64,000 nt of DNA from the NCBI RefSeq assembly GCF_037081775.1, contig NZ_JBAMHQ010000001.1:2604001-2668000 (forward strand). The letters are read 5' to 3'. A program made the position numbers and the translations under genes. Shown in pieces: positions 33,141 through 42,520 of this stretch (positions within the stretch are counted from its first letter, which is position 1; every line of letters begins with the position of its first letter). The notes below the pieces were generated by a model. The model was not told the DNA's origin, searched no databases, and saw nothing but the letters and a program-made list of their open reading frames with translations. This DNA is from Haladaptatus sp. ZSTT2 (GTDB lineage Archaea > Halobacteriota > Halobacteria > Halobacteriales > Halococcaceae).

Positions 33141-33815
33141 TTACCGCCCGAACGGTCGCCAGTAGAGCAGACCCACCGTGAGCACGAAAATCACGGTCGA
33201 CAGGCCGTAGGACTGCACCGTGACCGCACCCGCGATGGCCGTGCCACTGCCCACAACGCCGCTCACAATCGAGGCGAGGATGGGCCACGAACAAGAGACA
33301 CACGACAGCAGGCCGAGGAGGCCTGTAATCGCCGAACTCGCCGCGTCGATGACCGTCGCGTAGACGAGGTAGGAGAGCGCGAGGTAGCCAAGCAAGTTGT
33401 ATGGCATGAGCGCAAAGCGCAGGGTTTCGCCGCCGTAGAGGAGCGCCGGACTCCAGCCTGGTGGAATCGACAGGACGGCGAGGCGCAAGCCAGTCGGCTC
33501 GAACCCACTCGCCGGGCCGACGATGCCGCCTGCAACCCCGAGGACGATGAAGTAGCCAACGGCGACCGCTTTTGCGAGCCGTCTGTGCTCGGGACTCGTC
33601 GGCGCGGGTTTGGTGCGGACGAGCGCCCAGAGCGCGACGTTAATCCAGACGAACGGGTAGACGTAGTACTTCGCCGACGCGAGCGTTGGCTGAACGTTTG
33701 AAAACTGGAGGTACGCGACGATGAGGAGCAGTTCGGTGTTGACGAGCAACGCGCCCCACATCAGCGTCGATTGGCGCGGGCGCGGCAGGCTGAGGGTGCG
33801 GTTTGTGAGACTCAT
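33141..33815 (-). CDS. Haloarchaeal membrane protein downstream of ctaB
   Basis: 224 residues, six to seven helices, starting at the ATG at 33815 that overlaps the stop of the heme synthase gene (ATGA). A striking motif is GLLGLLSCVSCSWPILASIVSG (about 165-186): a Cys-x-x-Cys inside a helix, suitable for a metal or disulfide. I do not recognise a named family. The strict overlap with ctaB makes a role in heme A or copper supply for the oxidase plausible. The C-terminus ends in a further helix and YWRPFGR. Confidence 0.78.
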   Translation of the reverse strand: MSLTNRTLSLPRPRQSTLMWGALLVNTELLLIVAYLQFSNVQPTLASAKYYVYPFVWINVALWALVRTKPAPTSPEHRRLAKAVAVGYFIVLGVAGGIVGPASGFEPTGLRLAVLSIPPGWSPALLYGGETLRFALMPYNLLGYLALSYLVYATVIDAASSAITGLLGLLSCVSCSWPILASIVSGVVGSGTAIAGAVTVQSYGLSTVIFVLTVGLLYWRPFGR

Positions 33816-35209
33816 AGGACGAGGGCGTCTATGATGATGGCGAGCAGCAACATCCCGAGATAGGCGTTCGAGGCGTGGAACGCGCGGAACGCCGCGCCGG
33901 TGGTGCGCTCGCGGTGGAGCCGGACGACCGCCCAGAGGAACACGCCCCCGAGCGAGACGGTCGTGAGCGCGTAGAGCCACCCGAGCGTGGTCACGGTGCC
34001 GAGGACGCTCGCGCCGATGAGCGTGGCCGCGAGGTACCACAGGATGTGTTTCCGGGTGAGTGCGTCACCGCGCACGACGGGCATCATCGGGAAGCCGCCG
34101 CGCGCGTAGTCGTCCTTGTACGCCAGTGCGAGGTTGTAGAAGTGCGCTGGCGTCCAGAGGAAGATGACACCCGCGAGCGCGAGACCGGGCAGCCCGATGT
34201 CGCCGGTGACGGCGGCCCAGCCGATGAGCGCCGGAAGCGCGCCCGCCGCCCCGCCGAGTACCGTGTTCTGGACGGTGTTCGGCTTGAGAACGAGCGTGTA
34301 GATGACGCTGTAAAACAGGATTGCCGTGAGGCCGAGGGCGGCCACGAGCAGGTTCACCTGTGCGAACACCCACAGCGAGATGCCGGTGAGTGCGAAGCCA
34401 AAGATGAGCGCGTTGCGGACGGGCACCTGATGGGTGGCAAGCGGTCGTTTTGCGGTGCGCTCCATTTTCTGGTCGATGTCGCGCTCTAAGACGTGGTTGA
34501 ACGTCCCGCTCGCGCCAATCGAGAGCACGCCACCGGTGAGGGTGTACACGACCGTTTGAATGCTGAGGCCGGGACCCGAGGCGAGCGCCATGCCCGCAGC
34601 GGCGACGAGCGCGAGCAGCCACATGAGCCGGGGCTTCATTAGTTGGAAGTACGCCCAGATAGTCGCCTTCGCGCGGGCGGCGAGCGGACGGTCTTTGAGC
34701 GGCGTGACGGCTTCCGGTGGCCTCGCTGGTTCTGGCTCGTCAGTGTCGTGTGGTTCGTTGTCGAACGCGGCGGTCTCCTCTTCAAGAGTCCACGCGAGCG
34801 CGACGACAATGCCGGTGAAAATTCCCATGCCGACGAGGAGGTGGGCGGTCGGAAGTGCTCCGACGCCACCGGAGTCTGCGACGAGCGCGCCGATACCGAC
34901 CTGTATCGGATAGAGCGCAAGAACTCCGACGAGCGCGCCTTTGACGCGGCGCGAGGCCGCCCCGCGCAGGCCGCGGACGACGGCGAGCAAGACGAGCAGG
35001 CCGACGAGCGCGGCGACGAGGCGGTGGGTGAGGGCGACGAGAAGGGCGGGGTCAGAAAAGTCGAGCGGGCCGCCACAGACAGGCCAACCGGAGCACGCGG
35101 CGGCCGCATCGGTGAGCGACGCGGTCGCGCCGACGACCACCAGCAAGTAGACACCCATCGCTGCGCCGGTGAGCAGCGTCGTAAACTTGGGAACGGTGGA
35201 GTCGGCCAC
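33812..35209 (-). CDS. ctaB: Fused heme A synthase-like (CtaA half) and heme O synthase (CtaB)
   Basis: 465 residues from a GTG at 35209. Residues 1-140 form a four-helix half-CtaA with the marks of a working domain: the CxxWPxC-type pair Cys39/Cys45 in ACSGWPVCGGP, His62 in LTHRLVAAL and His123 in PTAHLLVG. A charged linker (about 142-180) joins it to CtaB (about 185-465), a UbiA-type prenyltransferase with NHVLERDIDQKMERTAKRP and PHFYNLA-type sequence (PAHFYNLALAYKDDYARGG). CtaB turns heme B into heme O; CtaA turns heme O into heme A. It is divergent from coxB, sharing a palindromic promoter region. Most database names would mention only CtaB. Confidence 0.92.
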   Translation of the reverse strand: MADSTVPKFTTLLTGAAMGVYLLVVVGATASLTDAAAACSGWPVCGGPLDFSDPALLVALTHRLVAALVGLLVLLAVVRGLRGAASRRVKGALVGVLALYPIQVGIGALVADSGGVGALPTAHLLVGMGIFTGIVVALAWTLEEETAAFDNEPHDTDEPEPARPPEAVTPLKDRPLAARAKATIWAYFQLMKPRLMWLLALVAAAGMALASGPGLSIQTVVYTLTGGVLSIGASGTFNHVLERDIDQKMERTAKRPLATHQVPVRNALIFGFALTGISLWVFAQVNLLVAALGLTAILFYSVIYTLVLKPNTVQNTVLGGAAGALPALIGWAAVTGDIGLPGLALAGVIFLWTPAHFYNLALAYKDDYARGGFPMMPVVRGDALTRKHILWYLAATLIGASVLGTVTTLGWLYALTTVSLGGVFLWAVVRLHRERTTGAAFRAFHASNAYLGMLLLAIIIDALVL

Positions 35210-35325: not shown

Positions 35326-36135
35326 ATGAATTACAAGCGCATCGGGTTCGGGACCCTGCTCTCCGTGGCGCTTCTTGCGTTGGCTGTCGAACCAGTGGCA
35401 GCACAAGAGGCAACGTCGGTCACACGGGGGCTTATCGATGGGTTGAACAGCAAACTCCTGTTCGTCGCGATTCCGATTACGATTCTCACCGAAGGAATCC
35501 TCATTTACACCGTTTACAAATTCCGTAAAACGGAAGAGCCGAAGCCAACCCAGGAGAACCGCCGCCTCGAAATCACGTGGACCGTCGCCACCGCGATTAT
35601 CCTCCTGTTCGTCGGCGTCGCCTCCTATCAGGTGCTCGGCAACGAGTTCGTCACCACACCGGAGGACCAAGTAAACAACATTCAAGAAGAGAACGCCGTC
35701 GTCGTTGAGGTCACCGCCCAGAAGTACTTCTGGACGTTCCACTATCCACAACACGACGTGAACGCCTCCGACACGATGGTCATCCCATCCGACCGGCCGG
35801 TGTATCTCAAGATAACCTCGACAGATTGGCTCCACGCCTTCCACGTGCCAGAACTCGGTCTCAAGCAGGACGCCTTCCCCGGTGAAACTCACACCATCAA
35901 AACGAAGGTGAACCCATCCGGCGAGGGCACCTACCAGCTCTACTGTGCAGAGTACTGTGGGGTTGGCCACTCCGGAATGCTCGGTGAGGTCAACGTCACC
36001 GACGGCGCAACTTACGACCAATGGATTGAGAACCAGCAGGCGGCCGCCGAATCTGAATCCGGTGGCAACAACACCACCGCTGGTGGCAACAACGCGACGG
36101 CCAGCAACAACACCACCGCGAAACTCGCGGCATAA
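35326..36135 (+). CDS. coxB: Cytochrome c oxidase subunit II
   Basis: 269 residues. Signal sequence (to about residue 26), two helices (about 42-65 and 84-105) and an outside cupredoxin domain with the complete CuA site: His173, Cys207, Glu209, Cys211, His215 and Met218 (CAEYCGVGHSGM). KYFWTF is the electron entry patch. It passes electrons from a mobile donor, probably halocyanin in haloarchaea, to CoxA. The C-terminal tail (248-264) is a run of Asn-X-Thr sequons with Gly/Ala, open to N-glycosylation. Leaderless with TATA at 35295. Confidence 0.96.
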   Translation: MNYKRIGFGTLLSVALLALAVEPVAAQEATSVTRGLIDGLNSKLLFVAIPITILTEGILIYTVYKFRKTEEPKPTQENRRLEITWTVATAIILLFVGVASYQVLGNEFVTTPEDQVNNIQEENAVVVEVTAQKYFWTFHYPQHDVNASDTMVIPSDRPVYLKITSTDWLHAFHVPELGLKQDAFPGETHTIKTKVNPSGEGTYQLYCAEYCGVGHSGMLGEVNVTDGATYDQWIENQQAAAESESGGNNTTAGGNNATASNNTTAKLAA

Positions 36136-36698: not shown

Positions 36699-37553
36699 TT
36701 ACAGTGAGTACACCGCGCCGACGTACAGCACGACGACGAGGAAGACCCACACTGCGTCAACGAAGTGCCAGTACATCGAGACCGTCGACACGGAGGTGTG
36801 TCGCTCTGCGTCGTACTGGCCTTTGAGCGACCGGATGAACACGATGCCGAGGAGGACGGCACCGAGCGAAACGTGAAGCCCGTGGAGGCCAGTCAAGCCG
36901 AAGAAGGCGCTCGCAAACACGCCTTCGGTGAGCGTGAACCCTTCGACGATGATGAACTCGTAGTACTCGTACACCTGCCCGCCGAGGAACACGACCCCGA
37001 GCAGGAGGGTTGCGGCGAGCAGTTGGATGAACCGCGTGCGGTTCCCCTTCCGAAGCGCGACGTGCGCGTAGTGGAGGGTGACACTGCTCACGATCAGCAA
37101 TGCGGTGTTGATGATGACGAGCGACCCGAGGAATCCGTGTGGGATGTGCTCCGGTGGCCACGCACCTGCGCGGATAAAGAAGTAGTAAACGAACCCTGCG
37201 CCGAAGGTTGCGACTTCTGTTCCGAGGAACGATACCATCCCGAGACGCAGTCCTTTGCTGTGGCCGTCGCCGTCCCAGAAGTTGACGACGAAGGCGTGAT
37301 ACAGCCAGCCGTACAGTCCGGCAAGGAAGAGGAACGTGCTCGCGACGAACACGCCCGGTCCAGCCATCGGGTCAACGAGTGCATTCTCGCCCCGGGCGAG
37401 CACGAACAGGGCCGCGCCAACGTACAATCCAGCCCCGCCAAGGGCGGTGATAAACGGCCACCAGCTCGCCTCACCGAACCCGCGTGGCCAGTCCTCGACC
37501 GCGGGGAGGTGGTGGTGACCACCATGGTCATCCGATGCGTCTTCTACGCTCAT
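36699..37553 (-). CDS. coxC: Cytochrome c oxidase subunit III
   Basis: 284 residues with seven helices. Family features are ASWWPFITALGGAGLY (about 29-44), FFIRAGAWPPEH, and the C-terminal TGLHGLHVSLGAVLL and YWHFVDAVWVFLVVVLY. CoxIII binds lipid and keeps the proton uptake path active. The His-rich start (DDHGGHHHLP) is a common haloarchaeal trait. The ATG at 37553 is preferred to a 15-codon upstream extension. Unlike coxB and coxA it is on the minus strand, so the oxidase subunits are in separate transcripts. Confidence 0.95.
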   Translation of the reverse strand: MSVEDASDDHGGHHHLPAVEDWPRGFGEASWWPFITALGGAGLYVGAALFVLARGENALVDPMAGPGVFVASTFLFLAGLYGWLYHAFVVNFWDGDGHSKGLRLGMVSFLGTEVATFGAGFVYYFFIRAGAWPPEHIPHGFLGSLVIINTALLIVSSVTLHYAHVALRKGNRTRFIQLLAATLLLGVVFLGGQVYEYYEFIIVEGFTLTEGVFASAFFGLTGLHGLHVSLGAVLLGIVFIRSLKGQYDAERHTSVSTVSMYWHFVDAVWVFLVVVLYVGAVYSL

Positions 37554-37653
37554 GGTCGGACGTTTACAGTGGAATACCAAAAACCCTCCCAACCGCATCC
37601 GCCGGTAACTGTTTTCGGAACATACACGTTCGTGCCCAGACTACCGCCGGTAA

Positions 37654-39048
37654 ATGAGCGACCGCACCCCGAACGGAGGTCGCAGTTGGCTCCGGGCGGG
37701 TACCCTAACCCTCCTCACCCTCACGCTCTTCGTGGGTCGGGCACTCGCCCACGGTGGGAGCCTCCGTGCTGCCACGCCCGAACAACTGGCCATTCCGACG
37801 TGGCTCTTCTTGCTGACCGGGAGCGGCGTGATCGGGGCGTCGTTCTTGCTCGCGAGTTTCGTCACGAACCGCGCGTTCATTCGCTCGATTCACGACTGGC
37901 ACCGACGGCTCTCAGTCCCACGAGCAGCCTTGGCCGCGGGTGCGCTCAAACTCGTTGGCGTACTAGGTCTTCTCGCCGTACTCGTCGTGGGATTTTTCGG
38001 GCCACAGTTCCCGCTTGGCAACCTCGCCATCCTCACGGTCTGGGTGGGGTGGTGGGCGGGCTACACCATCTCCGTGTATCTCATCGGAAACACGTGGGAG
38101 ACGCTCAATCCGTGGCGGACGATTGCAGAGGTGCTCCCCACAGTTGGCGCGACCTACCCTGACCGCCTCGGTGCGTGGCCAAGCGTTGGCGGCCTGCTCG
38201 CACTCGTCTGGCTCGAAGTCGTGAGCCCGCTCGCAGACCAAGCCGACCTCCTCTCCACCGTCGTTCTTGGGTACACCATCGTCACACTCGCGGGTGCCGT
38301 TTTCTACACGCCGGACAAGTGGTTTTCGACGGTTGACCCCGTCTCGCGCGTGTTCACCTACTACGGCCGAGTCGCCCCACTCAGACGCACCGCGGATGGC
38401 CTCAAACTCCGGCTTCCCGGCTCGGCGCTCGAAGACACGCGATTCGTAGACGGCCCGGACGAGGTCGCGTTCGTCATCGCACTGCTCTGGGTCACGACCT
38501 ACGATGGATTCGTCACCACGCCCGCGTGGACGGACCTCGCGACGTGGCTCGTGAATCTCGGCGTGCCCGCGCTCGTGCTCTACTCCGTCGCATTGCTCGC
38601 CGGGTTCGGCCTCTTCCTCGGTGCATACCGTGCGGCCACGCGTCGAAGCATTGGCTTCGCGGAAACGTACCTCCCGGCAAAAACCCTCGCCACGCGATTT
38701 GCCCCGTCGCTTCTCGCCATCGCCGCTGGCTACCACCTCGCGCACTTCCTTGGTTACTTCATCTCACTGTCGCCCGCGCTCGTGACCGTTGCGTTCTCGC
38801 CACTTACCCCACCGGCGAACGTCCCCGTCATTCCGCTTCCATCGTGGTTTGGCGGCCTCAATCTCACCTTCGTCTTGCTCGGCCATCTTGTCGCAATTTG
38901 GGTGGCTCACGCGACTGCCTACGACCTGTTTCCCTCCCGGCTGCAAGCCATCAGGAGCCAGTACCCCTACATCGCCGTGATGATGTTCTACACCATGGTC
39001 AGCCTCTGGATTGTCGCAGAACCAGACCTCACCCCTCCATTCCTATGA
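37654..39048 (+). CDS. Large membrane protein of the oxidase region, unknown function
   Basis: 464 residues, about 12 helices. An N-terminal hydrophobic segment ends in ALAHGGSLRA (about 32-42), possibly a signal sequence or first helix. Helices contain conserved-looking polar spots: GYHLAHFLGYFISLSPAL (about 370-388) with two histidines, and LLGHLVAIWVAHATAYDLF with two more. Paired His in helices would suit heme or metal binding. I do not recognise the family, but the gene begins a plus-strand run that ends with coxA. Its stop overlaps the next gene (ATGA). A role in oxidase assembly or electron transfer is inference from context. Confidence 0.75.
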   Translation: MSDRTPNGGRSWLRAGTLTLLTLTLFVGRALAHGGSLRAATPEQLAIPTWLFLLTGSGVIGASFLLASFVTNRAFIRSIHDWHRRLSVPRAALAAGALKLVGVLGLLAVLVVGFFGPQFPLGNLAILTVWVGWWAGYTISVYLIGNTWETLNPWRTIAEVLPTVGATYPDRLGAWPSVGGLLALVWLEVVSPLADQADLLSTVVLGYTIVTLAGAVFYTPDKWFSTVDPVSRVFTYYGRVAPLRRTADGLKLRLPGSALEDTRFVDGPDEVAFVIALLWVTTYDGFVTTPAWTDLATWLVNLGVPALVLYSVALLAGFGLFLGAYRAATRRSIGFAETYLPAKTLATRFAPSLLAIAAGYHLAHFLGYFISLSPALVTVAFSPLTPPANVPVIPLPSWFGGLNLTFVLLGHLVAIWVAHATAYDLFPSRLQAIRSQYPYIAVMMFYTMVSLWIVAEPDLTPPFL

Positions 39049-39284
39049 CCGACGACGCACCCTTCCCGTGTCCGTACTGTGACCAGCGATTCGCCCGCGA
39101 ACAGTGGCAGGCGTTGCATCTTGGCCTCGACCACGACGACGTGTTAACCGACGCAGAGCGCGAAGCCGTCTCTGCGGCTCGCGAGCAAGAGGTTGCAGAC
39201 CTCAAGACATTCCGACTGAAGGCACTCGCCGCGCTCGTGTTCCTCTACTTTGGGTTCCTATTTGCCTACTCGCTTTTCGCCTGA
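39045..39284 (+). CDS. C2H2 zinc-finger protein with a C-terminal membrane helix
   Basis: 79 residues, ATG overlapping the previous stop. A single C2H2 finger (Cys9, Cys12, His25, His30) sits at the N-terminus, then a charged helix (DAEREAVSAAREQEVADLK) and one hydrophobic helix (about 60-78, ALAALVFLYFGFLFAYSLF). By topology the finger should face the cytosol. Haloarchaeal oxidase clusters carry this type of protein; its role is not known to me. It could bind zinc or copper during assembly, or tether nucleic acid or another protein to the membrane. Confidence 0.8.
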   Translation: MTDDAPFPCPYCDQRFAREQWQALHLGLDHDDVLTDAEREAVSAAREQEVADLKTFRLKALAALVFLYFGFLFAYSLFA

Positions 39285-39330: not shown

Positions 39331-39735
39331 ATGGACGAACAACCGGGATTGAGCGACCAGTACAGCCGTGCCAGCCCGTGGCCGGTGTTCGTCGCCCTCG
39401 GCCTCGCTTTGTCTGAGGTCGGTATCGTCATGGCGCTGTTCCCCCTCGCCGTTGGTGGCCTCTTGCTGTTCGCGGGAAGCGTAACCGGAATCCTACAGGA
39501 ATCAGACTATATCGAGTCACCGTGGCCACTGCTTTCTGGGTTCGGCGTCGTCTTGCTCGCCGTCGGTGGCGGCCTCGTGCTCTCACAGGCAGCTGCATCC
39601 ACGCCCGACGCCATCCTCACTGCCATCTCGCAGATGAATGGTCTCGTCTTCCGTGGCCTGTCGATTCTCCTCTCTGGTGTGATTCTCGCGGTTCTCGGCG
39701 TGGTCGGGAAGGTTGCGGAACCGGCCCAGTTCTAA
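39331..39735 (+). CDS. Four-helix membrane protein of the oxidase region
   Basis: 134 residues from the ATG at 39331. A polar start (MDEQPGLSDQYSRASPWPVF) is followed by four helices: about 20-45, 62-82 and 105-130, the second hairpin broken by a short loop (ESDYIESPWPL). No cysteine or histidine ligands are visible. I do not recognise a named family with certainty. It lies 46 bases after the zinc-finger gene and 47 before the next small gene. An upstream in-frame GTG/ATG would add 27 non-hydrophobic residues and is not favoured. Confidence 0.75.
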   Translation: MDEQPGLSDQYSRASPWPVFVALGLALSEVGIVMALFPLAVGGLLLFAGSVTGILQESDYIESPWPLLSGFGVVLLAVGGGLVLSQAAASTPDAILTAISQMNGLVFRGLSILLSGVILAVLGVVGKVAEPAQF

Positions 39736-39782: not shown

Positions 39783-40052
39783 ATGACCGAGCGCATCTTC
39801 GACCGTGACACGATGCTCGACCTCACGGTGAACATGATTCCGATGGGGATTATCCTCTTTTTCATCATTGGGTTCGCCGTGTTCAATCCGTTTGGATTCA
39901 ACCTAGAAAAGTCAAGTCTCCAGTACGCCCTCCTCATCGTTCCATTCGCCGCGATGGGCCTGCTCACATACTACGCGGGCAAGGCCATCTCGCTTGGCGA
40001 ACAGGAAATTGAGAACGACGCGAACATGGAAAACCCGTACGAAACGCACTAG
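39783..40052 (+). CDS. Small two-helix membrane protein, DUF6684-like
   Basis: 89 residues. N-terminal FDRDTMLDLTVNMIPMGI, helix 1 (about 18-38), loop with FNPFGFNLEKSSLQ, helix 2 (about 48-66) and an acidic tail (EIENDANMENPYETH). I recall this as the DUF6684 family that accompanies haloarchaeal coxA; it may be a small oxidase subunit like those found in other A-type oxidases. Its own TATA element and the 186-base gap to coxA suggest separate transcription. The gap holds only the coxA promoter. Confidence 0.75.
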   Translation: MTERIFDRDTMLDLTVNMIPMGIILFFIIGFAVFNPFGFNLEKSSLQYALLIVPFAAMGLLTYYAGKAISLGEQEIENDANMENPYETH

Positions 40053-40238: not shown

Positions 40239-42023
40239 ATGGCTACAGGACAGTTAGCACTGACGGTGCTGATGGGGGTGTTCCTCATCGCCGTCGCTGC
40301 CTGGCTCTCTCGCGTCGAAGATTGGCGCTCATATGCTCCGCTATCGGGAGGCGGCGGCTACAGGAGGGACACAGGCACCGCTCACGAGGAGAAGCCTGCG
40401 GGACTTATCCGCTGGCTGACCACGGTTGACCACAAAGACATCGGAATTCTCTACGGACTCTACGGGACGATTGCCTTCATCTGGGGCGGTCTCGCGGTCC
40501 TGCTCATGCGCGTGGAACTTGCCTCGCCGGCACAGGACGTCATCGAGCTGTCGATGTACAACGGCCTGCTCACGAGTCACGGAATCACGATGCTGTTTTT
40601 GTTCGCAACGCCCATCATCGCGGCGTTCTCGAACTACTTCATCCCGCTGCTGATTGGCGCAGACGACATGGCGTTCCCGCGCATCAACGCCATCGCGTTC
40701 TGGCTCCTGCCACCGGCGGCGCTGCTCATCTGGGCTGGCTTCTTCTTGGACCCACTCACGGGTGGACAGATTCAAGCCGCACAGACGAGCTGGACGATGT
40801 ACACCCCGCTGTCCGCAGAACAGGCCAACCCCGGCGTTGACCTGATGCTCCTCGGGCTGCACCTTTCTGGTGTCTCTGCGACCATGGGTGCGATTAACTT
40901 CATCGTCACCATCTTCACCGAACGCAATGACAAGGTCAACTGGGCCAACCTCGACATCTTCTCCTGGACGATTCTGACCCAGTCCGGCCTCATCCTGTTC
41001 GCGTTCCCACTGCTTGGCAGCGCGCTCATCATGCTGTTGTTAGACCGTAACTTCGCCACGACGTTCTTCACCGTCGGCGGCGGGTCACCGATTCTCTGGC
41101 AACACCTGTTCTGGTTCTTCGGCCACCCAGAAGTGTACATCCTCGTCCTCCCACCGATGGGGATGGTCAGCTATATCTTGCCGAAGTTCGCGGGACGCAA
41201 GCTGTTCGGGTTCAAGTTCGTCGTCTACTCGACGCTCGCCATCGGCGTACTCTCGTTCGGTGTGTGGGCCCACCACATGTTCTCGACGGGTATCGACCCA
41301 CGCCTGCGTGCGTCGTTCATGGCCGTCTCACTGGCGATTGCCATCCCGAGTGCGGTCAAGACCTTTAACTGGATAACCACGCTCTGGAACGGGAAACTCC
41401 GGATGACCGCCCCGATGCTGTTCTGTATCGGGTTCATCTCGAACTTCATCATCGGCGGCGTCACCGGTGTCTTCCTCGCGGCGGTTCCGGTCGACCTCGT
41501 GCTCCACGACACCTACTACGTCGTGGGTCACTTCCACTACATCGTGATGGGCGTCATTGCGTTCGGCGTGTTCGCCGCGGTGTACTACTGGTTCCCAATC
41601 TACACCGGGCGGATGTACCAGCGCACGCTCGCTAAGTGGCACTTTTGGCTCGTCATGGTCGGGACGAACCTGACGTTCTTTGGCATGCTCATCCTCGGCT
41701 ACCTCGGCATGCCGCGGCGCTACGCCACCTACGACTTCAACCCGGCAATCACGCCGATGCAGGCGATTACGGCGCTCCACCAGCTCGCAACCGTCGGCGC
41801 GTTCATCATCGCCATCGGCATGGCCATCTTCGTCTGGAACATCGTCATGTCCTGGATGGAAGGCCCCGTCATCGAAGACGGCGACCCATGGAGTCTCAAG
41901 GACACGAATCAGCACGGCCACGAATGGCACTGGCACGAAAACCGCGTCAACCGCTCTATTGTCGCGGCTGACGGCGGTGAAGAAGAAGTCGCAACCGACG
42001 GCGGCGAAGTCGCAGACGAGTAA
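40239..42023 (+). CDS. coxA: Cytochrome c oxidase subunit I (A1-type heme-copper oxidase)
   Basis: 594 residues, 12 core helices plus a short N-terminal hydrophobic extension (residues 1-25). Ligands: the low-spin heme His in NGLLTSHGITMLF, the CuB His and cross-linked Tyr in FFGHPEVYILVLPP, the next two CuB His in WAHHMF, and both heme His in LHDTYYVVGHFHYIVMGV. The HPEVY glutamate marks the A1 subfamily with a D channel. A further N-terminal segment (DWRSYAPLSGGGGYRRDTG) precedes the core. The C-terminus is acidic with His (HEWHWHENR). It reduces oxygen to water while pumping protons. Confidence 0.97.
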   Translation: MATGQLALTVLMGVFLIAVAAWLSRVEDWRSYAPLSGGGGYRRDTGTAHEEKPAGLIRWLTTVDHKDIGILYGLYGTIAFIWGGLAVLLMRVELASPAQDVIELSMYNGLLTSHGITMLFLFATPIIAAFSNYFIPLLIGADDMAFPRINAIAFWLLPPAALLIWAGFFLDPLTGGQIQAAQTSWTMYTPLSAEQANPGVDLMLLGLHLSGVSATMGAINFIVTIFTERNDKVNWANLDIFSWTILTQSGLILFAFPLLGSALIMLLLDRNFATTFFTVGGGSPILWQHLFWFFGHPEVYILVLPPMGMVSYILPKFAGRKLFGFKFVVYSTLAIGVLSFGVWAHHMFSTGIDPRLRASFMAVSLAIAIPSAVKTFNWITTLWNGKLRMTAPMLFCIGFISNFIIGGVTGVFLAAVPVDLVLHDTYYVVGHFHYIVMGVIAFGVFAAVYYWFPIYTGRMYQRTLAKWHFWLVMVGTNLTFFGMLILGYLGMPRRYATYDFNPAITPMQAITALHQLATVGAFIIAIGMAIFVWNIVMSWMEGPVIEDGDPWSLKDTNQHGHEWHWHENRVNRSIVAADGGEEEVATDGGEVADE

Positions 42024-42113: not shown

Positions 42114-42200
42114 CTAGAACATCACGAGGACGAACCCGCCAAGGAACATCAACGCGGCTATCGCGCCGAGAATGAGCATCAACAGCTCTTTGTCGGACAT
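42114..42200 (-). CDS. 28-residue single-helix membrane microprotein next to coxA
   Basis: Read directly from the bases: ATG at 42200, stop TAG at 42116-42114. The product starts MSDKELLMLILGAIAALMFL and ends GGFVLVMF. It has a short charged cytoplasmic start and one glycine-patterned helix reaching the C-terminus, like the very small subunits of other oxidases. It is convergent with coxA and divergent from the 86-residue gene, in an otherwise unexplained gap of 236 bases. Too short for normal gene calling. Codon use is normal for this genome. Evidence is shape and context only. Confidence 0.6.
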   Translation of the reverse strand: MSDKELLMLILGAIAALMFLGGFVLVMF

Positions 42201-42259
42201 ACTCGGCGTTGGCACCGCGAGGTCAAAAGGCTAATCGTCGGTGATTCCTAAACCGGAAT

Positions 42260-42520
42260 ATGGGAAAGACGCAGACGTTCACCGGCGGTCGGCGCGTCGT
42301 CCTCACCATCTACGTCGTCGTCGTGGCAGTCGCCGCGCTCACGGGACTGATTCTCGGCACCTTCGTCGAAGGAAAACTGCTCGCACCAAAATATCTCGGC
42401 CTCATCGAGTTCCCCGCAACCCCCCTCGGACTCGCCGCCTACGGTGCGTTGACGCTCGCGACCGTCCTTGGCGTTCTCCTTGGGTTGGTCATCTACGTTT
42501 CAGACCGCTACGTCGAGTAG
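42260..42520 (+). CDS. Small two-helix membrane protein downstream of coxA
   Basis: 86 residues: basic start (MGKTQTFTGGRR), helix 1 (about 13-33), a loop with EGKLLAPKYLGLIEFPATPLG, helix 2 (about 58-80) and YVSDRYVE. No recognised ligands. Haloarchaeal coxA is often followed by a protein of this size, so I take it as part of the oxidase set. An inverted repeat ATTCC-N6-GGAAT ends at the base before the ATG. It converges on the acyl-CoA ligase with three bases between stops. Confidence 0.75.
   Translation: MGKTQTFTGGRRVVLTIYVVVVAVAALTGLILGTFVEGKLLAPKYLGLIEFPATPLGLAAYGALTLATVLGVLLGLVIYVSDRYVE

Follow-up and report, generated by a model that had tools for sequence, protein, structure and literature searches.

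Stabilising subunits of about 30–40 aa with a single helix were found late in cytochrome bd (CydX/CydH) and in the cbb3 oxidase (CcoM), and the aa3 oxidases of alpha-proteobacteria such as Paracoccus and Rhodobacter carry a one-helix accessory subunit IV (PF07835), a protein of about 50 aa that has a long extension at its N-terminus and the role of which is unclear. In B-type ba3 oxidases, the tiny single-helix subunit IIa (Thermus thermophilus, 1EHK/1XME chain C; Aquifex aeolicus CoxIIa; haloarchaeal CbaD) is encoded upstream of subunit II and provides the helix that the one-helix subunit II is missing. It is often overlooked by annotation and is reported absent where subunit II has two helices (PMC3128077). 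With regard to haloarchaea, the aa3 enzymes of Haloferax volcanii (HVO_0907) and Halobacterium salinarum (OE_1979R) have already been studied (PMC8305020).

Within the window, i.e., the whole 64 kb stretch of DNA that was analysed, a gene for a 28-residue peptide was found in an oxidase cluster. Similarly to subunit IIa, this peptide is tiny, oxidase-adjacent and, by prediction, single-helix. Unlike in IIa systems, however, the oxidase linked to it is A-type and its subunit II has both helices. The features concerned are the following:

33812-35209, minus strand: fusion of a CtaA-like protein and CtaB (heme A/heme O synthase); PF01040 E=6e-61, PF02628 E=1.3e-6, the latter just below cut-off
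35326-36135, plus strand: coxB, subunit II with two-helix membrane and CuA domains; PF00116 and full-length PF02790 (COX2_TM)
36699-37598, minus strand: coxC, subunit III; PF00510 E=1.3e-31
39331-39735, plus strand: DUF7541, multi-helix membrane protein; PF24396 E=9.7e-46
39783-40052, plus strand: DUF6684, two-helix membrane protein; PF20389 E=5e-32, AF2 model two-helix (pLDDT 82.7)
40239-42023, plus strand: coxA, subunit I of an A-type heme-copper oxidase, with a GHPEV motif; PF00115 E=3.9e-154, TIGR02891 above cut-off
42114-42200, minus strand: 28-aa gene (predicted single-helix membrane protein), from its ORF, homologs and pN/pS
42224-42237, minus strand: promoter-like box CGATTAGCCTTTTG, ~30 nt upstream of the ATG of the 28-aa gene, at the position of the BRE/TATA of a leaderless mRNA
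42260-42520, plus strand: membrane protein of the DUF7520 family, divergent from the adjacent 28-aa gene; PF24364 E=5.4e-28

Among these neighbours, DUF7541 is possibly a distant relative of oxidase subunit IV of the CtaF type, and thus a candidate haloarchaeal subunit IV, since 12 of 24 members matched PF12270 (Cyt_c_ox_IV) below cut-off, with a best E of 3e-4. A comparison of its AF2 fold with the PDB gave no confident match; 8hcr_H, from the M. tuberculosis bcc:aa3 supercomplex, appeared at rank 22 and is suggestive only. This sub-threshold likeness to CtaF suggests the presence of accessory oxidase subunits in the module, and it supports an oxidase-accessory role for the 28-residue peptide, DUF7541, DUF6684 and DUF7520. 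Between coxC and DUF7541 there is also a gene for a 464-aa multi-pass membrane protein (37654-39048, plus strand), which had no Pfam or NCBIfam match; its end is overlapped by DUF7410 (39045-39284, plus strand), a small protein with a zinc finger and, at the C-terminus, a hydrophobic stretch.

Reading frame and promoter-like box

A sequence-only reading of this DNA had placed a 28-residue frame after coxA on the opposite strand, and this arrangement was confirmed. Translation of the minus strand from an ATG at 42200 to the stop codon ending at 42114 gives MSDKELLMLILGAIAALMFLGGFVLVMF, with a hydropathy peak of 2.63 over a 19-residue span. Between the gene and the end of coxA there are 90 nt, and between it and the start of DUF7520, its neighbour in most loci, 59 nt; its own genome holds one copy. 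Although an in-frame GTG is located five codons upstream, the ATG is preferred as the start, because 78 of 91 distinct homologs have an ATG at the aligned position. Hydrophobic mini-ORFs of this kind are not rare (4 in the window) and, therefore, a single sequence is weak proof for a gene.

Upstream of the start codon, a [C/G]C[T/G]TT core was present at 22–40 nt in 76 of the 91 homologs, 70 of them having it at 29–32 nt, as against 9% of shuffled upstream regions. Within the window, the exact sequence TTAGCCTTTT occurs only at the box of this gene. Where the N-terminus is extended, in six loci (L120, L133, L134, L138, L139 and L198), the box is shifted along with the start codon, and a related box (GCCTTTG or ACCTTTG) remains upstream of the gene in L026-L028, where it is flipped to the coxA strand. 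Leaderless mRNAs are common in haloarchaea, and the spacing fits the BRE/TATA of a leaderless promoter, a role that we infer for the box and that would make it a handle on co-regulation.

Conservation, coding signature and helix shape

A search with the single peptide gave matches in 161 of 243 genomes of the order, and an aligned ORF was recovered in 30/30 of the first loci (29 in the first pass, L007 later). In an alignment of 24 rows, M1, K4, M18 and F19 were invariant and L7, L11, G22, L25 and V26 nearly so; with the profile built from it, 277 of the 392 genomes of the order gave a match (E<=0.1). Halococcus morrhuae, Halocatena marina and Halalkalirubrum salinum are among the carriers known by name. 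Counted from the aligned start, the 91 distinct ORFs measure 27–32 aa, with a few homologs beginning 5–9 codons further upstream. Elsewhere in the phylum, the profile search returned just weak partial stretches. A CoxA search of genome contigs retrieved 14 haloarchaeal loci among a bacterial majority; no convincing homolog of the peptide was found in 66 bacterial coxA loci. A tblastn search of the PLSDB plasmids gave no match, which says little for a query of only 27 aa.

Over 244 pairs, pN/pS was 0.31 in the frame of the gene, the lowest of the six, and 0.65–2.96 in the five others. This is a coding-type pattern of substitution and indicates that selection acts at the protein level. Antisense frame 1 was rejected as the coding frame: it is open in 90 of 91 homologs, yet its pN/pS is 0.65. 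Compared with the nearest relative, the gene shows 3 synonymous and 0 non-synonymous changes. For the sequence-only reading, disruption of the frame or a lack of conservation in close relatives would have counted against its proposal; the frame is intact, and the peptide is identical in one congener and 89% identical in the other. Given this conservation, the proposed frame is a real gene beyond chance.

Regarding the shape of the peptide, conservation along residues 6-27 is periodic, with an alpha-helical peak (moment 7.04 over 95–105 degrees, permutation p=0.0009). The conserved core consists of K4, L11, M18 and L25, in exact heptads, together with L7, A15, G22 and V26; L11, M18, L25, L7 and G22 fall on one face, and the variable residues 9, 16, 20 and 27 lie opposite. 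Such a pattern would be expected of a single membrane helix that packs against a partner, insertion into the membrane being a prediction. The earlier description of the helix as glycine-patterned stands only in part: positions 12, 13, 15 and 22 are mostly small residues, but Gly12 and Gly21 vary among homologs.

Association with A-type CoxA and separated loci

The frame recurs beside coxA in other haloarchaea, downstream of its 3' end in 81 of the 81 distinct loci that have both genes (median gap 129 nt), and on the opposite strand in 72 and the same strand in 9. Across 392 genomes, the gene and A-type CoxA occurred together in 268 and were both missing in 105, with 9 genomes having the gene only and 10 CoxA only (Fisher p 9e-72, in a test that ignores shared ancestry). 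Among the 19 discordant genomes, the 9 gene-only cases are mostly weak matches, and G003 and G051, scored as CoxA only, have a diverged ORF in the slot. The gene-negative genomes that were checked nearly all carry only a distant, fused-type COX1 homolog, or none. Both DUF7520 and DUF7541 were absent from the ten CoxA-poor genomes tested. CoxA paralogs in the same genomes have no copy of the 28-aa gene nearby.

There are also genomes in which the module is split. In genus g44, the 28-aa gene and DUF7520 are unlinked from coxA, DUF6684 and DUF7541 within the same genome, and in several f7 genera DUF7541, DUF6684 and the 28-aa gene are kept together without coxA, the aa3 CoxA being a 52–53% identical homolog encoded elsewhere. 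In G139 and G144, a diverged ORF lies between this other coxA type and a DUF7541 gene. This persistence of the gene and its partners after separation argues for a shared function and against passive linkage. Binding to this particular CoxA would not be obligatory, since some f7 genera keep the gene after replacement of the orthologous coxA.

A number of individual loci complete this picture. The trio without adjacent coxA was seen in L150-L154, L278 and L279, and in L150 it adjoins a polyprenyl synthetase gene. Downstream of a second, about 57% identical coxA type, near a DUF7541 gene, there is a related ORF, MARKELLALLLAAVSIGVFLIGFVVVLV (L164:3855-3941 and L165:457-543). Diverged second copies on other replicons (L158:2974-3060, L159:3006-3092 and L160:3046-3132) end in F-V-[IVL]-R-L-A; that of L160 is near DUF7520 and DUF7333, and that of L158 is near DUF7350/Fe-transport and DUF7405 genes and beside a relative of the 464-aa multi-pass protein.

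Candidate role and likeness to known oxidase subunits

Judging from these sequence comparisons, the peptide is probably an overlooked part of the oxidase or a helper in its building. The sequence-only reading, which saw in it a possible oxidase subunit missed so far, is supported in part. We favour, with moderate confidence, an accessory single-helix subunit that stabilises the haloarchaeal aa3 oxidase and has its own leaderless-type promoter. The gene would be transcribed from that promoter, and its product would enter the membrane as one transmembrane helix. The conserved face (K4-L11-M18-L25 plus L7, A15, G22 and V26) may then pack on a helix of the aa3 module, with CoxA, CoxC or the co-conserved DUF7541, DUF6684 and DUF7520 as candidate partners, and the peptide, as a small accessory subunit, would stabilise the complex together with these three DUF proteins. 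The peptide is not known from any haloarchaeal aa3 oxidase purified to date, although tiny subunits are easily missed. Counting against a subunit is that the peptide has no sequence relation to any of the known oxidase subunits searched, and that no copy of its gene lies near the CoxA paralogs of the same genomes.

Second in rank, and rather unlikely in our estimation, is an assembly or biogenesis factor with a transient role in membrane insertion, in the loading of heme a/CuB or in the joining of CoxA, CoxB and CoxC, which would work with DUF7541, DUF6684 and DUF7520 and be absent from the finished enzyme. The separate promoter, the usual location on the strand opposite coxA and the heme A synthesis genes in the same cluster are in line with such a factor, as is the fact that after an exchange of CoxA the gene is still found with DUF7541 and DUF6684, as expected of a general helper. 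However, a one-faced helix of invariant length, with neither a soluble part nor Cys/His metal ligands, looks more like a structural helix. It is still less probable that the peptide is a part or regulator of another complex (e.g., with DUF7520, a halocyanin or a copper system) and is near coxA through shared regulation. Its companions in genus g44 are DUF7520 and an AMP-ligase gene instead of coxA, and its diverged relatives on other replicons have the DUF7520/DUF7333 or DUF7350/Fe-transport/DUF7405 surroundings given above; nevertheless, its presence follows A-type CoxA over the 392 genomes, and the gene-positive f7 genomes G007 and G024, in which DUF7520 was not matched, still have it along with DUF7541. 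As for a spurious frame, or conserved non-coding or regulatory DNA, chance hydrophobic mini-ORFs do occur, but conservation of sequence, length, start and stop, coding-type substitutions, inverted copies in the same slot and a box that tracks the start codon leave this extremely improbable.

Returning to the accessory subunit, we also put forward, tentatively and with slightly less than even confidence, that haloarchaeal aa3 oxidases have an unrecognised accessory shell (DUF7541, DUF6684, DUF7520 and the 28-mer), in which the 28-mer would be a stoichiometric subunit that is found almost throughout the order, is specific to it and lacks any homolog beyond Halobacteria. The gene is conserved across haloarchaea and tied to their main terminal oxidase, and none of the protein-family libraries searched contains it, for which its size is a plausible reason. 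Should its product be a subunit or an assembly factor, the compositions published for haloarchaeal aa3 oxidases would be incomplete, and DUF7541, DUF6684 and DUF7520 would gain a first functional hypothesis as oxidase accessory proteins.

Comparison with Pfam, NCBIfam and the PDB gave no usable match for the peptide; those to DUF3185 (for the extended frame, E=0.015) and 7tgh_TE (E=0.12) were discarded as chance-level. Membership of the IIa/CbaD family was likewise rejected, as CoxA is A-type by TIGR02891 and CoxB has a full-length, two-helix COX2_TM. In addition, hhalign of the profile with Thermus IIa returned a probability of 1% over 7 aligned columns, and the IIa motif PX1-3GT/A was not found in the family, the consensus of which is without proline. 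Because CoxB already has both membrane helices, the peptide is not an equivalent of subunit IIa. Among 24 members, no match to PF07835 or other Pfam families was obtained, in searches whose filters can miss short models. CydX, CydH and CcoM differ in being bacterial and in belonging to other oxidase classes, and the PDB search did not match them. The actinobacterial aa3 subunit IV (CtaF, PF12270), for its part, is weakly similar to the neighbour DUF7541; it is a multi-helix protein and unrelated to the 28-aa peptide. Read as an accessory subunit, the peptide is like alpha-proteobacterial subunit IV, a one-helix accessory subunit of an A-type oxidase. Taken as a functional kind, and not as a homology family, single-helix accessory oxidase subunits share two traits with the peptide: a conserved short ORF genetically tied to the oxidase and, as predicted from sequence, a hydrophobic helix whose packing face is conserved.
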